From: Methanoplanus endosymbiosus
Lineage (GTDB): Archaea > Halobacteriota > Methanomicrobia > Methanomicrobiales > Methanomicrobiaceae
DNA: 64,000 nt
NCBI RefSeq assembly: GCF_024662215.1
Contig: NZ_CP096115.1
Location: 2,678,935 to 2,742,934 of the forward strand
Direction: 5' to 3'
Positions within the stretch are counted from its first letter, which is position 1. Every line of letters starts with the position of its first letter. Shown in pieces: positions 1,919-58,320 of the stretch. The position numbers and the translations under genes are program-made. Under the pieces are notes generated by a model. The model searched no databases, was not told the DNA's origin, and was given only the letters and a program-made list of their open reading frames with translations.

Positions 1919-1974
1919 TGTTAAGCAGGACATATATACCGGCCATAACGCATTATTACATGAATTATAAGATT

Positions 1975-2181
1975 AGCGTAAAACCCCTTGGTCTTTAGCC
2001 AAGGGGATGTAAGCGATACATTCAAATAATAATCGGGATAATGACCATGGATATCATTACGATAACCAAGTATCTGATATATTACACCCTTGGGACAAGG
2101 GGAAGGGCCTGTGGACTTGTGGAGGTTACTCCGAGGTATGAAGCAGGAAGCATCCGGGTCTTTAGCCCGGAGGTAGTTCAC
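1975..2181 (+). mobile_element. Non-autonomous deletion derivative of the tnpB (IS200/IS605-like) element
   Basis: Bases 1975-2018 (44 nt) are identical to the left end of the tnpB element at 52919-52962, including a hairpin with 8-bp arms (CCCCTTGG/CCAAGGGG) and loop TCTTTAG. Bases 2092-2181 align without gaps to that element's right end (54201-54290), 74 of 90 positions identical by my count, both ending in TTCAC. About 75 bp of unrelated sequence replaces tnpB. It is therefore a 207-bp MITE-like relic that keeps both transposition ends and the guide-RNA scaffold. The same TTATAA hexamer lies 4 nt upstream of the identical block in both copies. Confidence 0.85.
2092..2181 (+). ncRNA. omega-RNA-like scaffold of the non-autonomous element
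   Basis: This stretch corresponds to the right-end region that in IS605-type elements is transcribed as the reRNA/omega-RNA guiding TnpB. It keeps the GAAGGGCCTGTGGACT core and the terminal hairpin with loop TCTTTAG. Relative to the full element one stem pair changes from T-A to C-G (compensatory), so the stem is conserved. The putative guide is the flanking genomic sequence from 2182 on. Transcription is not shown by the sequence. Confidence 0.5.
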
Positions 2182-17763: not shown

Positions 17764-18540
17764 ATGAGTGTAGAAGTAATTCCGGTTGAAAAACTCCCGA
17801 TATTTCATAACGGTGATGATCTCGCTGAAAGTATTGCGTCAGGGTTTGAGTTTTCAGATGGTGATATCATCTGTATAGCATCATCTGTATATTCAAAGAC
17901 GAAAGGGTATATCCGCCAGCTTGATGAGATAATTCCGGGTGAGAAGGCAGCAGAGATAGCCGGCGTATGCGGCGAGGACCCACGCTTTATTCAGGCAGTT
18001 TTAGACACCACAGAAGATCTCATACTTGACCGGCCTTTTGTTCTCTCACAGGTCAGATGCGGGCATGTCGGTGTCAGGGCCGGTGTTGACAACAGCAATG
18101 TTGAGGACGGAACTATTATTTACCTTCCGCCTGAGCCGATGGAGTCAGCAGAGGAGATGAGGGTGAGGTTTAAGGAGATTACTGGTAAGGATGTCAGGGT
18201 AATTATCACTGATACCTGTGGGCGGTCTTTCAGGCGTGGGCAGACCGGCGTTGCAATCGGATGGGCAGGGATGACTGCTATTCATGACTTCAGAGGCGAC
18301 TGCGATCTCTTTGGCAGGGTTTTAGAGATAACAGAAGAGGCTGTTGTTGATGAGATTGCTGCCTTTGCAAACTTCATAATGGGAGAGTCTGACAGGGGGG
18401 TTCCTGCTGTTGTGTTCCGGAACTGTGGGTCATGGAAGGGTCATGATGAACTGTACTTCAGACCTGAAGAGGACATCACCAGAAGGGCACTGAAGAGATC
18501 TTATATGACTAAAGAGGATAGCCACAACGGGAAGGCGTAA
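17764..18540 (+). CDS. cofE: Coenzyme F420-0:L-glutamate ligase
   Basis: 258 residues, usual CofE length. It shows the family blocks DGDIICIASSVYSKTKGYIR, FVLSQVRCGHVGVRAGVDNSN, VIITDTCGRSFRRGQTGVAIGWAG and FRGDCDLFGR. CofE adds two glutamates to F420-0 with GTP to make F420-2, the hydride carrier of methanogenesis. It has its own upstream region; no other F420 biosynthesis gene is adjacent. Confidence 0.95.
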   Translation: MSVEVIPVEKLPIFHNGDDLAESIASGFEFSDGDIICIASSVYSKTKGYIRQLDEIIPGEKAAEIAGVCGEDPRFIQAVLDTTEDLILDRPFVLSQVRCGHVGVRAGVDNSNVEDGTIIYLPPEPMESAEEMRVRFKEITGKDVRVIITDTCGRSFRRGQTGVAIGWAGMTAIHDFRGDCDLFGRVLEITEEAVVDEIAAFANFIMGESDRGVPAVVFRNCGSWKGHDELYFRPEEDITRRALKRSYMTKEDSHNGKA

Positions 18541-18552
18541 ATAGATCCAATT

Positions 18553-18592
18553 GTCAACTACCCCTGAGCTAAAGACACAGGGGTTTCCTGCT
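18553..18592 (-). repeat. Decayed right-end hairpin of the tnpB element
   Basis: Read on the minus strand these 40 bases align without gaps to the last 40 bases of the tnpB element (54251-54290), 34 identical by my count, ending GTTGAC where the element ends GTTCAC. The hairpin loop TCTTTAG is intact, and one stem pair changed from T-A to C-G together. No left end or scaffold core is found on the higher-coordinate side, so it is a solitary relic immediately downstream of cofE. The remaining bases up to 18804 hold only AT-rich sequence with T runs. Confidence 0.68.
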
Positions 18593-18804
18593 ATGTTCTT
18601 ATGAAAGAGAAATCGTTCAGACAGATAATAATGAATCAGACATATAAAGATAGATCTGAATCTGTAATTAAAATATATTATTTTTGATTTTCCTGACAGT
18701 TTTTGCCGGGAAAATTATTTTTTTCTGCCTTATAATCCGGCTGAAAAATTATTCCGCTGTTTAAGATCTCCGGTTCTGAATTCCGGAGTTAAACATTTTG
18801 CTCC

Positions 18805-52797: not shown

Positions 52798-53072
52798 ACA
52801 TATTCGTGTATTTAATAAATAAAAAACCTTGCTAATAATAAAAAGAACCTGCCGGAAATGTTCTGTTCCAACCGGATATTTTTCCGGTTATCGGGTGAGT
52901 CAGTCTTTTTATAATATGAGCGTAAAACCCCTTGGTCTTTAGCCAAGGGGATGTAAGCGATATTTACATACAAAACTGACATGATACATAAGAAGATATT
53001 TACTATGGTTTTTTCGTTTGTAGATCATAATGGCACAAAATATATATTGTGGTAAAACACAATTGCACGTGC

Positions 53073-54185
53073 ATGTTGAGGGCCTACAGATACCGAATGT
53101 ATCCTAACAAAGAACAGGAGAAAATGTTCTTTCAACATTTCGGCGCATGTAGGTTCATCTACAATTGGGGTTTGGGAAATAAACTCCGGACATACAAATC
53201 CAATGGTGAATCGATATCAAGATTTGTATTGAATAAAATGTTACCTGATTTGAAATCAGAACATACCTGGTTAAATGACATTAATTCACAGTCTTTACAA
53301 GGTGCAATATTAAATCTTGAAAATGCATTTACTCGGTTTTTCCGGGAAAAGAAAGGCTTTCCTAATTTTAAATCCCGGAAAAATCCAGTGCAGTCGTTCT
53401 CTGTTCCGCAAGGATATAAGGTGGATTTTGAAATTCAAAAAATCCGGTTGCCTAAAATCGGATGGGTCAAAATAAAATTACACCGAAGATATAACGGAAT
53501 TGAGAAAACTGCAACGGTATCTGTCACACCAACCGGAAAATTTTTCATTAGTATTTTGATAGACGATGGACAAAAACAAACTCCAACGCAACATTTTAGC
53601 GAAAATACAACAGTTGGTGTTGATCTCGGTATCAAAGATTTTGCAATATTATCCAATGGGGAAATGATTGACAATCCGAGAAATTTAAAAAAATCTATTT
53701 CCCAAATGAAAGTATTACAAAGACGGCTAAGCAGAAAACAAAAAGGCTCTAAAAATAGAAATAAAGCAAAAAAAGCAGTAGCAAAACTCCACGAAAAAAT
53801 CCACAATCAACGCAATGATTTCCAGCACAAACTCTCTTTTAGATTAGTATGCGAGAACCAAGCAATTGCAGTGGAAACATTGAATGTTGAAGGGATGTTA
53901 AAAAACCATAAATTAGCTCAGCATATCGCTGATGCCTCATGGAGTTCATTTGTTACTAAATTAGAATATAAAGCACAACGGCAAGGTAAAACAGTCTTAC
54001 GGATAGGGCAGTTTGAACCATCTACAAAAATATGTAGTGAATGTGGTTATTATAATCAGGATTTAACATTAGCGAATAGAGATTGGATTTGTCCAGACTG
54101 TGGGATACACCATGATCGAGATATTAATGCCGCAATAAACATCAGGAAATTTGCCCTTGATAGACAAAATCTAATTGGAATTTAA
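53073..54185 (+). CDS. tnpB: RNA-guided endonuclease TnpB
   Basis: 370 residues from the ATG at 53073 (MLRAYRYRMYPNKEQ fits the family start; a GTG at 53049 would add eight residues, neither has a ribosome site). N-terminal helix-turn-helix and wedge region, then the RuvC nuclease with D184 in GVDLGIKDF, E268 in AVETLNVEGM and D350 in HDRDINAAINI, and a zinc ribbon CSECGYY...CPDCG. All three catalytic acids are kept, so it should be active. TnpB cuts DNA matching its omega-RNA guide next to a short motif (TAM), which favours element retention. Confidence 0.93.
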   Translation: MLRAYRYRMYPNKEQEKMFFQHFGACRFIYNWGLGNKLRTYKSNGESISRFVLNKMLPDLKSEHTWLNDINSQSLQGAILNLENAFTRFFREKKGFPNFKSRKNPVQSFSVPQGYKVDFEIQKIRLPKIGWVKIKLHRRYNGIEKTATVSVTPTGKFFISILIDDGQKQTPTQHFSENTTVGVDLGIKDFAILSNGEMIDNPRNLKKSISQMKVLQRRLSRKQKGSKNRNKAKKAVAKLHEKIHNQRNDFQHKLSFRLVCENQAIAVETLNVEGMLKNHKLAQHIADASWSSFVTKLEYKAQRQGKTVLRIGQFEPSTKICSECGYYNQDLTLANRDWICPDCGIHHDRDINAAINIRKFALDRQNLIGI

Positions 54186-54200
54186 TAATTATACACCTTC

Positions 54201-54290
54201 GGGACGAGGGGAAGGGCCTGTGGACTCACGAATAATAGTTCGGAGAATGAAGCAGGAAGCCTCTGGGTCTTTAGCCCAGAGGTAGTTCAC
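54201..54290 (+). ncRNA. omega-RNA (reRNA) scaffold at the right end of the tnpB element
   Basis: Lies just after the tnpB stop, where IS605-type elements make the guide RNA. It contains the GAAGGGCCTGTGGACT core and the terminal hairpin, and ends at TTCAC. Ninety bases align gap-free with the copy at 2092-2181. The guide would be the flank from 54291 (TTTCTGAAAGG...). The terminal stem is supported by compensatory changes between three copies in this window. Transcription start not determined. Confidence 0.65.
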
Positions 54291-54404
54291 TTTCTGAAAG
54301 GTTAGAGTGTAACTGATCAATACAAAACCGGGAAGAATACCACCCAAACTATTTTTTAGTCCGGCGGATTATATACTGTTAATATATCAATGGCAGGTGA
54401 TAAG

Positions 54405-55864: not shown

Positions 55865-56131
55865 ATGTGGGGCGATAAGAAGAAACTGACTCTTTTGGTT
55901 CTGTCTGTCTGGCTGGCCATAGTGGTAATTTTTATGGCCCTCGCAAATATACTGAATGTTGAGATCCTTTTTGTGCTCTGGCTGATTGGCATTCTTGTTA
56001 TTATTGAACTGATTGACTCACCGTATCTGAGCACGTCATATATCAAAAATCTGAAGATTGTTATCTCGGCAGGGGTTGGAGTGTTTGGGCTGATTGTTGC
56101 GTTTAAGGTTCTGGAGATAATAAGCAGATGA
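55865..56131 (+). CDS. Three-helix membrane protein (first gene of second MoxR operon)
   Basis: 88 residues from the ATG at 55865 (a TTG at 55862 precedes it directly). Three hydrophobic helices (about 8-28, 30-48 and 60-84) with little else. It ends in ATGA overlapping the start of the DUF4129 gene, so it belongs to the operon. Function unknown. Confidence 0.6.
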   Translation: MWGDKKKLTLLVLSVWLAIVVIFMALANILNVEILFVLWLIGILVIIELIDSPYLSTSYIKNLKIVISAGVGVFGLIVAFKVLEIISR

Positions 56132-58320
56132 AGAGGTATTTCTCTGCACTTCTGCTTGCCGTGCTTGCTCTCGTTTTCATATCTGTTCTGTTAAGTACTG
56201 TTGACTCTGCTGAACTCTTCACCCCAAAGGATATTCCCGGAACAGATATGCATAATAATCCGGATGCACTGAGACAGATTTCAAGGGAGGAGTCTGCAAA
56301 TGTCTTTGACATGATGCAGGATTTTATTGATCTCTCCGACTCCATCGTCATAAATCTTAAGATTAAAAATCTTGATGATGCAATGGAGGACTTAGAGGAG
56401 TATGCACGTCTTGCCTCAAGGTATGACAATCTTATAATCAATCTTGATATGGATGACTCTGAGATCGAGGAGTTTCGGCGTAATAATAAGGATCAGCTTG
56501 AAGCCTTAAAGGAGACTGTGCAGGATTCAGAACTGCTGGAGGATTTAAAGACACTTCAGATCCAGTACCGGGAGTCCGGTGATTCCAGTAAGTTATATTC
56601 TGTCACTTATGAGATTGAGGCTTTAAAGAAGAAGATGGGCATTAATACAGCAAGGCTTGAAAACAGCACTAAAAAGCTGACTGAGTCTTCAAAGAAGTAT
56701 GAAGTTGAAACATCCCGTCTTGAGGAGAGTTCAAAAACTATTCATGAGATTGGCAGTGATGATGAACCTGTTTCCGATCTGCCATCTCCTGAGTTAACAC
56801 CAACACCTACTCCTACTCCCAGGCAGACTGCAACTCCTACGGCAACTCCTACTGCGATTCGTACTCTGGCTCCCGGTGAGAGTGCAACTCCTACGGCAAC
56901 TCCTACTGCGATTCGTACTCTGGCTCCCGGTGAGAGTGCAACTCCTACGGCAACTCCTACTGCGATTCGTACTCTGGCTCCCGGTGAGAGTGCAACTCCT
57001 ACGGCAACTCCTACTGCGATTCGTACTCTGGCTCCCGGTGAGAGTGCAACTCCTACGGCAACTCCTACTGCGATTCGTACTCTGGCTCCCGGTGAGAGTG
57101 CAACTCCTACGCCAATTCCTACTGCGATTCGTACTCTGGCACCCGGTGAGAGTGCAACTCCTACGCCAACTCCTACCGCAATACCTACAGCAACTCCAAC
57201 GCCGGCACAACTGCCCCGTCAGGAGTCAGTTACTATTGAACTGTCATCTGAAATCGTATATTACGGAGACATGCTCAATATATCCGGAGATGTGGAGCGG
57301 GTATCAGATAACAAGGTAATTGAGATCTTCATAGACAGTAAGAAGGCCGGCAGTACAGGCGTTACAGCCGGCGGAAGATATCTCTATGGGTATCTGATAA
57401 ATAAGATTAAGGCCGGAAAGCATACGGTCTATTCAAAGACAGGGATCTCATATTCCGATGTCCTGGAATTTGAAGTCAAAAGCATTCCGAACAGACTTAA
57501 CTTTGATATTTCTGATTCCAAAGATGAATCCGGAGATAAGAACAGATATGTCTGCACCGGAAATTTAACTGCCGGAGGTAAACCTATAGCCGGAGCAGCT
57601 ATCAGTATCCTCTCAGGAGACACTAAAGTTGCAGAGGCGGTCACAGAGGACGATGGTGAATTCAGCGCCAACCTTACCCTTAAAGAAGGAGACAATGAAA
57701 TAAAAGTTGTCTTTGATGATCCCTCCTATCCGGTTGAAAAGACCACAAGTCCGGAGGTAAATGTCCATGTCCCCGGTACATTTTCAGTGGAAGTTATTCT
57801 GGTTGCCCTTTTATTCTCTGTAATTTTAGGCTATGCAGGATATTATATCCTCAACCGCAGAAAAAAGCTCCCAAAAATGCCCAGGATAGCAATGTCAAAA
57901 CTGCGCAGGGAGACTGCTTCAGAGGAGAATGGAGTGGAAGGCGAACCGGAGAGTCCTGATGTTGTAAAGCCGGTGTCTGTGAATGATTCCGGCATCAAAA
58001 AGCATTACATGGATCTGCTTTCAGATGGCGGATACTCTGCGGGATATCACTTCATTCTTACAATACTCTTTGAGGCACTTGCTGAGAAAAATACGATTAC
58101 CTACAAAAAGTCGATGACAGTAAATGAATTTTTAAGGAGACTTCCGGAAGGTCATGACAGTGAAATAACTTCCTTTGTCAGACTGTATGAGAAACTGGTA
58201 TATCAGGGCATATATGGTAAAGGAGATGAATGGTCAGTTTACCATCTCTTTGAGGAAATTTCCGGCAATCACAGTCTTGATGATTATCTGATGAAGTATG
58301 CAGGAGATGAGTGGTTATGA
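56128..58320 (+). CDS. DUF4129 membrane protein with 18-residue tandem repeats
   Basis: 730 residues. Signal peptide (1-29), a long coiled coil (about 60-215), a Thr/Pro repeat region with six copies of ATPTATPTAIRTLAPGES (about 235-350), one or two Ig-like beta domains (365-545; NKVIEIFIDSKKAGS, AGGKPIAGAAISILSGD), one helix near 555-575, and a cytosolic DUF4129 domain (about 622-725: KKSMTVNEFLRRLPEGHD). It is a large surface-projecting partner of the MoxR machinery. The repeats are nearly identical at DNA level, so length may vary between strains. Ends overlapping the DUF4350 gene. Confidence 0.8.
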   Translation: MKRYFSALLLAVLALVFISVLLSTVDSAELFTPKDIPGTDMHNNPDALRQISREESANVFDMMQDFIDLSDSIVINLKIKNLDDAMEDLEEYARLASRYDNLIINLDMDDSEIEEFRRNNKDQLEALKETVQDSELLEDLKTLQIQYRESGDSSKLYSVTYEIEALKKKMGINTARLENSTKKLTESSKKYEVETSRLEESSKTIHEIGSDDEPVSDLPSPELTPTPTPTPRQTATPTATPTAIRTLAPGESATPTATPTAIRTLAPGESATPTATPTAIRTLAPGESATPTATPTAIRTLAPGESATPTATPTAIRTLAPGESATPTPIPTAIRTLAPGESATPTPTPTAIPTATPTPAQLPRQESVTIELSSEIVYYGDMLNISGDVERVSDNKVIEIFIDSKKAGSTGVTAGGRYLYGYLINKIKAGKHTVYSKTGISYSDVLEFEVKSIPNRLNFDISDSKDESGDKNRYVCTGNLTAGGKPIAGAAISILSGDTKVAEAVTEDDGEFSANLTLKEGDNEIKVVFDDPSYPVEKTTSPEVNVHVPGTFSVEVILVALLFSVILGYAGYYILNRRKKLPKMPRIAMSKLRRETASEENGVEGEPESPDVVKPVSVNDSGIKKHYMDLLSDGGYSAGYHFILTILFEALAEKNTITYKKSMTVNEFLRRLPEGHDSEITSFVRLYEKLVYQGIYGKGDEWSVYHLFEEISGNHSLDDYLMKYAGDEWL
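56830..57180 (+). repeat. 54-bp tandem repeat array in the DUF4129 gene
   Basis: Six complete 54-bp units start at 56830, 56884, 56938, 56992, 57046 and 57100, with a partial seventh at 57154. Units 1-5 appear identical; unit 6 differs at a few positions. Because 54 is a multiple of three, copy changes keep frame and merely alter stalk length. Other frames stay open through the array, but these are artefacts of the repeat. It is not CRISPR: there are no spacers. Confidence 0.95.

Follow-up and report, generated by a model that had tools for sequence, protein, structure and literature searches.

The element at about 52913 to 54290 of the window is very probably a nonautonomous, tnpB-only (IS1341-type) member of the IS200/IS605 elements, derived by deletion of tnpA from an IS605-type parent, mobilized in trans, and retained by its TnpB. 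The window is the whole 64,000-nucleotide stretch of DNA that was analyzed, positions 2678935 to 2742934 of an archaeal genome that spans 3.16 Mb in one contig and is 99.1% complete. What we observed comprises the anatomy of the element, the copy number of its family, a tnpA relic, an intact tnpB gene with low dN/dS, a covarying omega-RNA, matched end loops, and the absence of the element from the orthologous site in a sister species. The element starts right after the TTTAT motif, some nucleotides to the left of the 52919 given in a preliminary description, and it ends with TTCAC at 54290, as was proposed there (Table 1). Elsewhere in the window, at 56128 to 58320, a 730-amino-acid ORF contains a run of near-identical ATPTAIRTLAPGES repeats.

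Table 1. Features of the element and of related sequences; positions are those of the window unless marked as genome positions.
Feature	Position	Strand	Basis
TTTAT target and left cleavage motif, probable TAM, outside the element	52908..52912	+	Motif before own left ends; Sulfolobus TnpB TAMs
GTAAA, probable guide sequence GL with complementarity to TTTA, on the 5' side of the left hairpin	52922..52926	+	Sequence; role by analogy with IS608 (PMC5934647)
Left-end (LE) hairpin CCCCTTGG-TCTTTAG-CCAAGGGG	52928..52950	+	Sequence, folding, comparison of own left ends
tnpA N-terminal relic (HSKYLLMYHVSFVC)	52966..53007	-	Alignment to L011 (tnpA+tnpB copy) and L161 (Methanogenium); translation
tnpB, 370 aa from the ATG kept in sister copies	53073..54185	+	IS200_TnpB NF038281, PF01385, PF07282, PF12323
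Right end, predicted omega-RNA scaffold: three stem-loops and closing helix	54185..54290	+	23-sequence alignment A1
Right-end (RE) hairpin CCTCTGGG-TCTTTAG-CCCAGAGG	54260..54282	+	Sequence, folding
TTCAC, right cleavage motif with which the element ends	54286..54290	+	Invariant in 23 A1 right ends; copy similarity ends there
Flanking DNA, would-be omega-RNA guide (TTTCTGAAAGGTTAGAGTGT)	54291..54310	+	First 16 nt exact only here
Mini-element (PATE/MITE), 217 bp: LE, short remnant, complete omega-RNA right end, no ORF	1965..2181	+	Family search and alignment
Degenerate single right-end hairpin (CCCCTGTG-TCTTTAG-CTCAGGGG...TAGTTGAC)	18540..18600 (approximate; genome 2697509)	-	
Single-hairpin relics	Genome 533808, 541534, 637586, 905762, 1370117, 1509653, 1688022, 2005571, 2653119, 473375, 112234		

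The tnpB reading frame, open from a GTG at 53049, carries no disabling change between 53073 and 54185. The encoded protein gave a strong profile match, and solved TnpB structures were matched at an E value of about 1e-70. The three RuvC acids and the zinc ribbon reported in the preliminary description are indeed present (GVDLGIK, AVETLN, and HDRD; CSECG...CPDCG). Loss of the catalytic acids among relatives, which had been named beforehand among the observations that would refute the preliminary reading, was not seen, and all 17 of the 17 aligned ORFs keep the RuvC motifs. Comparison with relatives gave a dN/dS of about 0.1, a value that is approximate since dS lies between 0.6 and 0.9. On sequence grounds, low dN/dS together with kept RuvC motifs is the pattern of a protein that worked while the element spread; host use is not shown by it. 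By homology (PMC8612924, PMC10640517), the protein would be expected to carry out RNA-guided, TAM-dependent cleavage of DNA.

An intact tnpB with low dN/dS, in a genome that has no intact transposase of the class, might suggest a domesticated copy that the host keeps for defense, for regulation, or with a retargeted guide, independently of transposition, and host use had indeed been offered earlier as one way for the element to survive. However, the low dN/dS is common to all family members, as expected from selection during spread, and the copy is a deletion derivative in a multicopy family about half of whose tnpB copies are broken. In TldR-like domesticated TnpB proteins the RuvC active site is lost; here the D, E, and D motifs are all present. 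Conservation of tnpB at the same site in close relatives had been proposed as a check, and at the orthologous site of a sister species of the same genus there is no element; 33 unrelated bases lie there between well-matching flanks, so the empty site is not precise to the letter. The would-be guide is the element's own flank, with no other exact site in the genome: no second target was found for it, and the other matches carried 2 mismatches and were about as frequent as matches to a control pattern. We consider domestication very unlikely on these grounds, and host use is not supported.

As was stated in the preliminary description, no tnpA gene lies inside the element. What the copy does retain is 14 codons of the tnpA N terminus, which makes it a deletion derivative of an IS605-type element. 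An alignment of the region between the left end and tnpB showed that the main subfamily retains the C-terminal end of tnpA instead. The tnpB-only state must therefore have come from at least two different deletions, and the differing breakpoints of the relics favor the trans-mobilized reading. The preliminary description had proposed searching the genome for a tnpA with matching end hairpins and for further copies, and both were found: there are 18 further tnpB copies and one such tnpA, but that gene is interrupted. A PF01797 search of the genome yielded two Y1 transposases. One belongs to a full tnpA-plus-tnpB copy at genome positions 1761643 to 1763360 (L011), which has the same ends as our element and an in-frame TGA early in tnpA. 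Survival by means of a TnpA elsewhere, as had been suggested, is thus plausible for the past, given this full copy, although its tnpA now has the stop codon. At a Methanogenium locus (L161; G021:C48), the same left end is adjoined by a tnpA that is open but whose HUH motif reads HIN, so that the predicted protein may be catalytically impaired. These two copies, the full one with its single TGA and the open Methanogenium gene with HIN, are where the family has a Y1 HUH TnpA. The second Y1 tnpA of our genome is of a different class (about 30% identity), adjoins a different tnpB, has different hairpin stems, and shows no visible start codon. This second IS605-type element, locus L046 at genome positions 2851281 to 2854400, has tnpA followed by tnpB, is split by an unrelated transposase gene, and carries hairpins CCCACG...CGTGGG with a loop that also contains CTTTAG; no tnpA start codon is visible there.

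The earlier label of a solo tnpB element did not hold at the level of the genome. A search of the genome with the element returned about 50 places, and the family, gathered by search and by genome stretches, comprises 19 tnpB copies that share these ends (10 of them with an uninterrupted tnpB), 3 mini-elements of about 170 to 220 bp, and roughly 11 relics, each a single hairpin of about 50 bp. Of the copies in which tnpB is not intact, three share a frameshift, and the others contain a stop, are interrupted by other mobile elements, or are truncated. The shared frameshift occurs in dispersed copies (L011, L018, and L021, at genome positions 1761643, 986447, and 66783), which indicates that a copy lacking a functional TnpB of its own was able to multiply. 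This genome has no second tnpB copy of the subfamily to which the element in the window belongs; the closest relative of the element, with 86% DNA identity, is in Methanogenium marinum.

Subterminal hairpins lie on the same strand at both ends of the element, as is the case for IS200/IS605 elements, and the 8-bp stems with the loop TCTTTAG that had been noted at both ends are present. Folded as single-stranded DNA, the LE and RE hairpins have energies of -9.3 and -9.6 kcal/mol (z of about -4.2 and -4.5, respectively). The loop may be shorter than 7 nt, as folding gives a T-G pair closing CTTTA; an alternative reading has an unpaired T and a C-G pair closing TTTA. The sequence GGTCTTTAGCC occurs 53 times genome-wide, versus 2 occurrences of a reversed control pattern, and the hairpin motif is therefore not due to chance. 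Right ends of relatives close with TAGTTCAC in nearly every locus read, and their hairpins fall into the loop classes TCTTTAG, TTCA/TTTA, and GTAA. The LE class equaled the RE class in 11 of the 12 loci where a left end was found, a sample from which many left ends are absent since the LE hairpin search of relatives missed them. By class, TCTTTAG was paired with TCTTTAG in 5 of 5 loci and the TTCA/TTTA class matched in 6 of 7; the sole mismatch is a 6-bp match near a contig edge. This agreement across related elements supports the earlier proposal that one factor reads both ends. TnpA is the known reader of IS200/IS605 ends, and in IS608 it reads both (PMC5934647). The shared loop is less unusual than had been thought: IS200/IS605 elements normally carry a paired recognition signal at their ends (PMC5934647), and in Halanaerobium, LE and RE hairpins that otherwise differ had already been noted to have a loop motif in common (PMC7290912).

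The right-end hairpin scores as terminator-like, and the shared hairpins could on that account be transcription terminators or RNA-processing signals only, rather than sites for a transposase. This reading is very unlikely, however, since the loop classes of LE and RE vary together from element to element, the left hairpin is accompanied by the guide-like GTAAA and a TTTA target and has no T-run, and the ends are kept in elements that contain no gene. The target motif is consistent as well: TTTAA or TTTAT stands upstream of nearly all left ends read in this genome, with ATTAT at one mini-element, and no flanking repeat indicative of target duplication was seen in the ends read by eye. In Sulfolobus the same two motifs are TnpB TAMs (PMC10640517), and by this analogy the TTTAT at the left flank is likely a TAM.

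The 3' end of tnpB runs into a conserved structured RNA that extends to the right end and is followed by a variable guide. In the right-end alignment A1, which contains 23 sequences from several genomes, 99.1% of cells are paired and 9 pairs have changed on both sides; none of 500 shuffles reached this covariation, and sliding the partners destroyed the pairing. The flank past TTCAC is different in every copy, as expected of a guide. A search of the element against Rfam gave no family above threshold. The covarying fold bears on whether the element is a dead relic, decaying and with its TnpB-omega-RNA inactive today. The loss of tnpA in this copy, the stop in the sole tnpA of the class in the genome, and the many copies that are truncated, interrupted, or reduced to single hairpins are all in keeping with that idea. 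We nevertheless judge it unlikely, because tnpB has no disabling change and the right end keeps its full fold.

The mini-elements and the relics of about 50 bp have IS605-type near-terminal palindromes and no transposase gene, and so they are PATEs as defined previously (PMC3119063). Mini-elements of about 217 to 230 bp that share one layout are present both in our genome and in two of Methanogenium. All mini-elements have the omega-RNA end, and in the longer ones there is also a short remnant similar to the part of tnpB around CENQAI. Compared across genera, their internal part is 43 to 51% identical and the omega-RNA part 73 to 81%; for the two longer mini-elements of this genome, the identity is 77% in either part. 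In a set of 7 mini-elements, 11 of 28 omega-RNA pairs have changed on both sides and 96.4% of cells are paired, a result that none of 500 shuffles reached. Gene conversion, with tnpB copies as donors, could produce a similar conservation of the omega-RNA.

In the single-hairpin relics, of which this genome has about 11, the sister 2, and a Methanogenium 1, GGTCTTTAGCC is the point at which the left half of LE meets the right half of RE; a deletion between the LE and RE hairpins would leave this arrangement. Terminal-only PATEs of this kind, 52 bp long, are known from Haloquadratum (PMC3119063). Most of the relics fold weakly; in two, at 541566 and 2653130, the stems are restored in part or in full. 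The idea that the relics are mobile REP-like units is weakened by the poor folding of most of them, and the Haloquadratum work (PMC3119063) leaves room for it. For the relic at 1370146, a single flank could be located in the sister genome, which is compatible with either deletion or insertion. Two palindromes were also encountered, one LE-LE' (L032, about 2301 to 2364; genome 2534329), in which two subfamilies are fused, and one RE-RE' (L034, about 2083 to 2114; genome 1903090). They were considered as junctions of one 630-kb inversion, and this was rejected because the flanks at both are collinear and adjacent in the sister.

Several known systems share parts of this picture. Like the IS605-type elements IS608 and ISDra2, the parent copy has a Y1 tnpA and a divergent tnpB, carries a subterminal hairpin at each end, inserts 3' of a short T-rich target, and has a right-end RNA overlapping the 3' end of tnpB. 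In contrast, the copy in the window lacks tnpA, and it has a TTTAT target and TTCAC right cleavage motif rather than TTAC and TCAA (IS608) or a TTGAT target (ISDra2). The IS200/IS605 elements of Sulfolobus islandicus (SisTnpB1), with tnpA and tnpB or with tnpB alone, likewise have an archaeal TnpB and right-end hairpins that form an omega-RNA, and their TAMs, TTTAA for tnpA-plus-tnpB and TTTAT for solo tnpB elements (PMC10640517), are the motifs found here; in our genome, however, TTTAA and TTTAT tnpB-only copies are one family, and the tnpA relics show that these copies derive by deletion. In Haloquadratum (PMC3119063), tnpB-only copies are likewise numerous, and there are tnpA pseudogenes and mini-elements along with relics of about 50 bp that arose by deletion between two near-terminal palindromes. 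The present case differs in its methanomicrobial host, in a shared repeat of 11 bp (GGTCTTTAGCC), and in an omega-RNA whose structure could be tested. The Halanaerobium IS605 family (PMC7290912), with 22 tnpB copies and one apparently functional IS605 tnpA, includes an ends-only copy with a whole right end, and its LE and RE share a loop motif, but it is bacterial, that motif is AAGCT, and its LE and RE stems are unrelated.

From ISDra2, Sulfolobus TnpB, and IS608 we infer the nuclease activity, the TAM, the mechanism of retention, and the mobilization in trans. The preferred reading, a trans-mobilized and TnpB-retained deletion derivative, would begin with the deletion of tnpA from an IS605-type parent carrying tnpA and tnpB, leaving a tnpB-only element. 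A Y1 TnpA from a full copy would have read the matching LE and RE hairpins in trans, with single-strand excision and then insertion 3' of TTTAT. TnpB would bind the right-end omega-RNA, with the flanking DNA as guide, and after excision the complex would cut the TTTAT-flanked empty donor site, the repair of which would restore the element. The family may be immobile now, as no intact TnpA of its class was found in the genome.

Considered as a TnpB element, the copy in the window is ordinary and belongs to a known kind. The omega-RNA covariation in protein-less mini-elements is the sole part that goes beyond the papers found, and it may already be known, since our coverage of the literature was partial. 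We tentatively suggest that these mini-elements use the TnpB of full copies in trans for retention at their own sites, which we regard as possible rather than probable. If true, an RNA-guided nuclease would be serving parasites of its own transposon family. The genome holds a compact series, from a full tnpA-plus-tnpB copy to tnpB-only copies, omega-RNA-only mini-elements, and single-hairpin relics, and this makes it a natural test case for whether TnpB can keep elements lacking a tnpB of their own in place after loss of the transposase.
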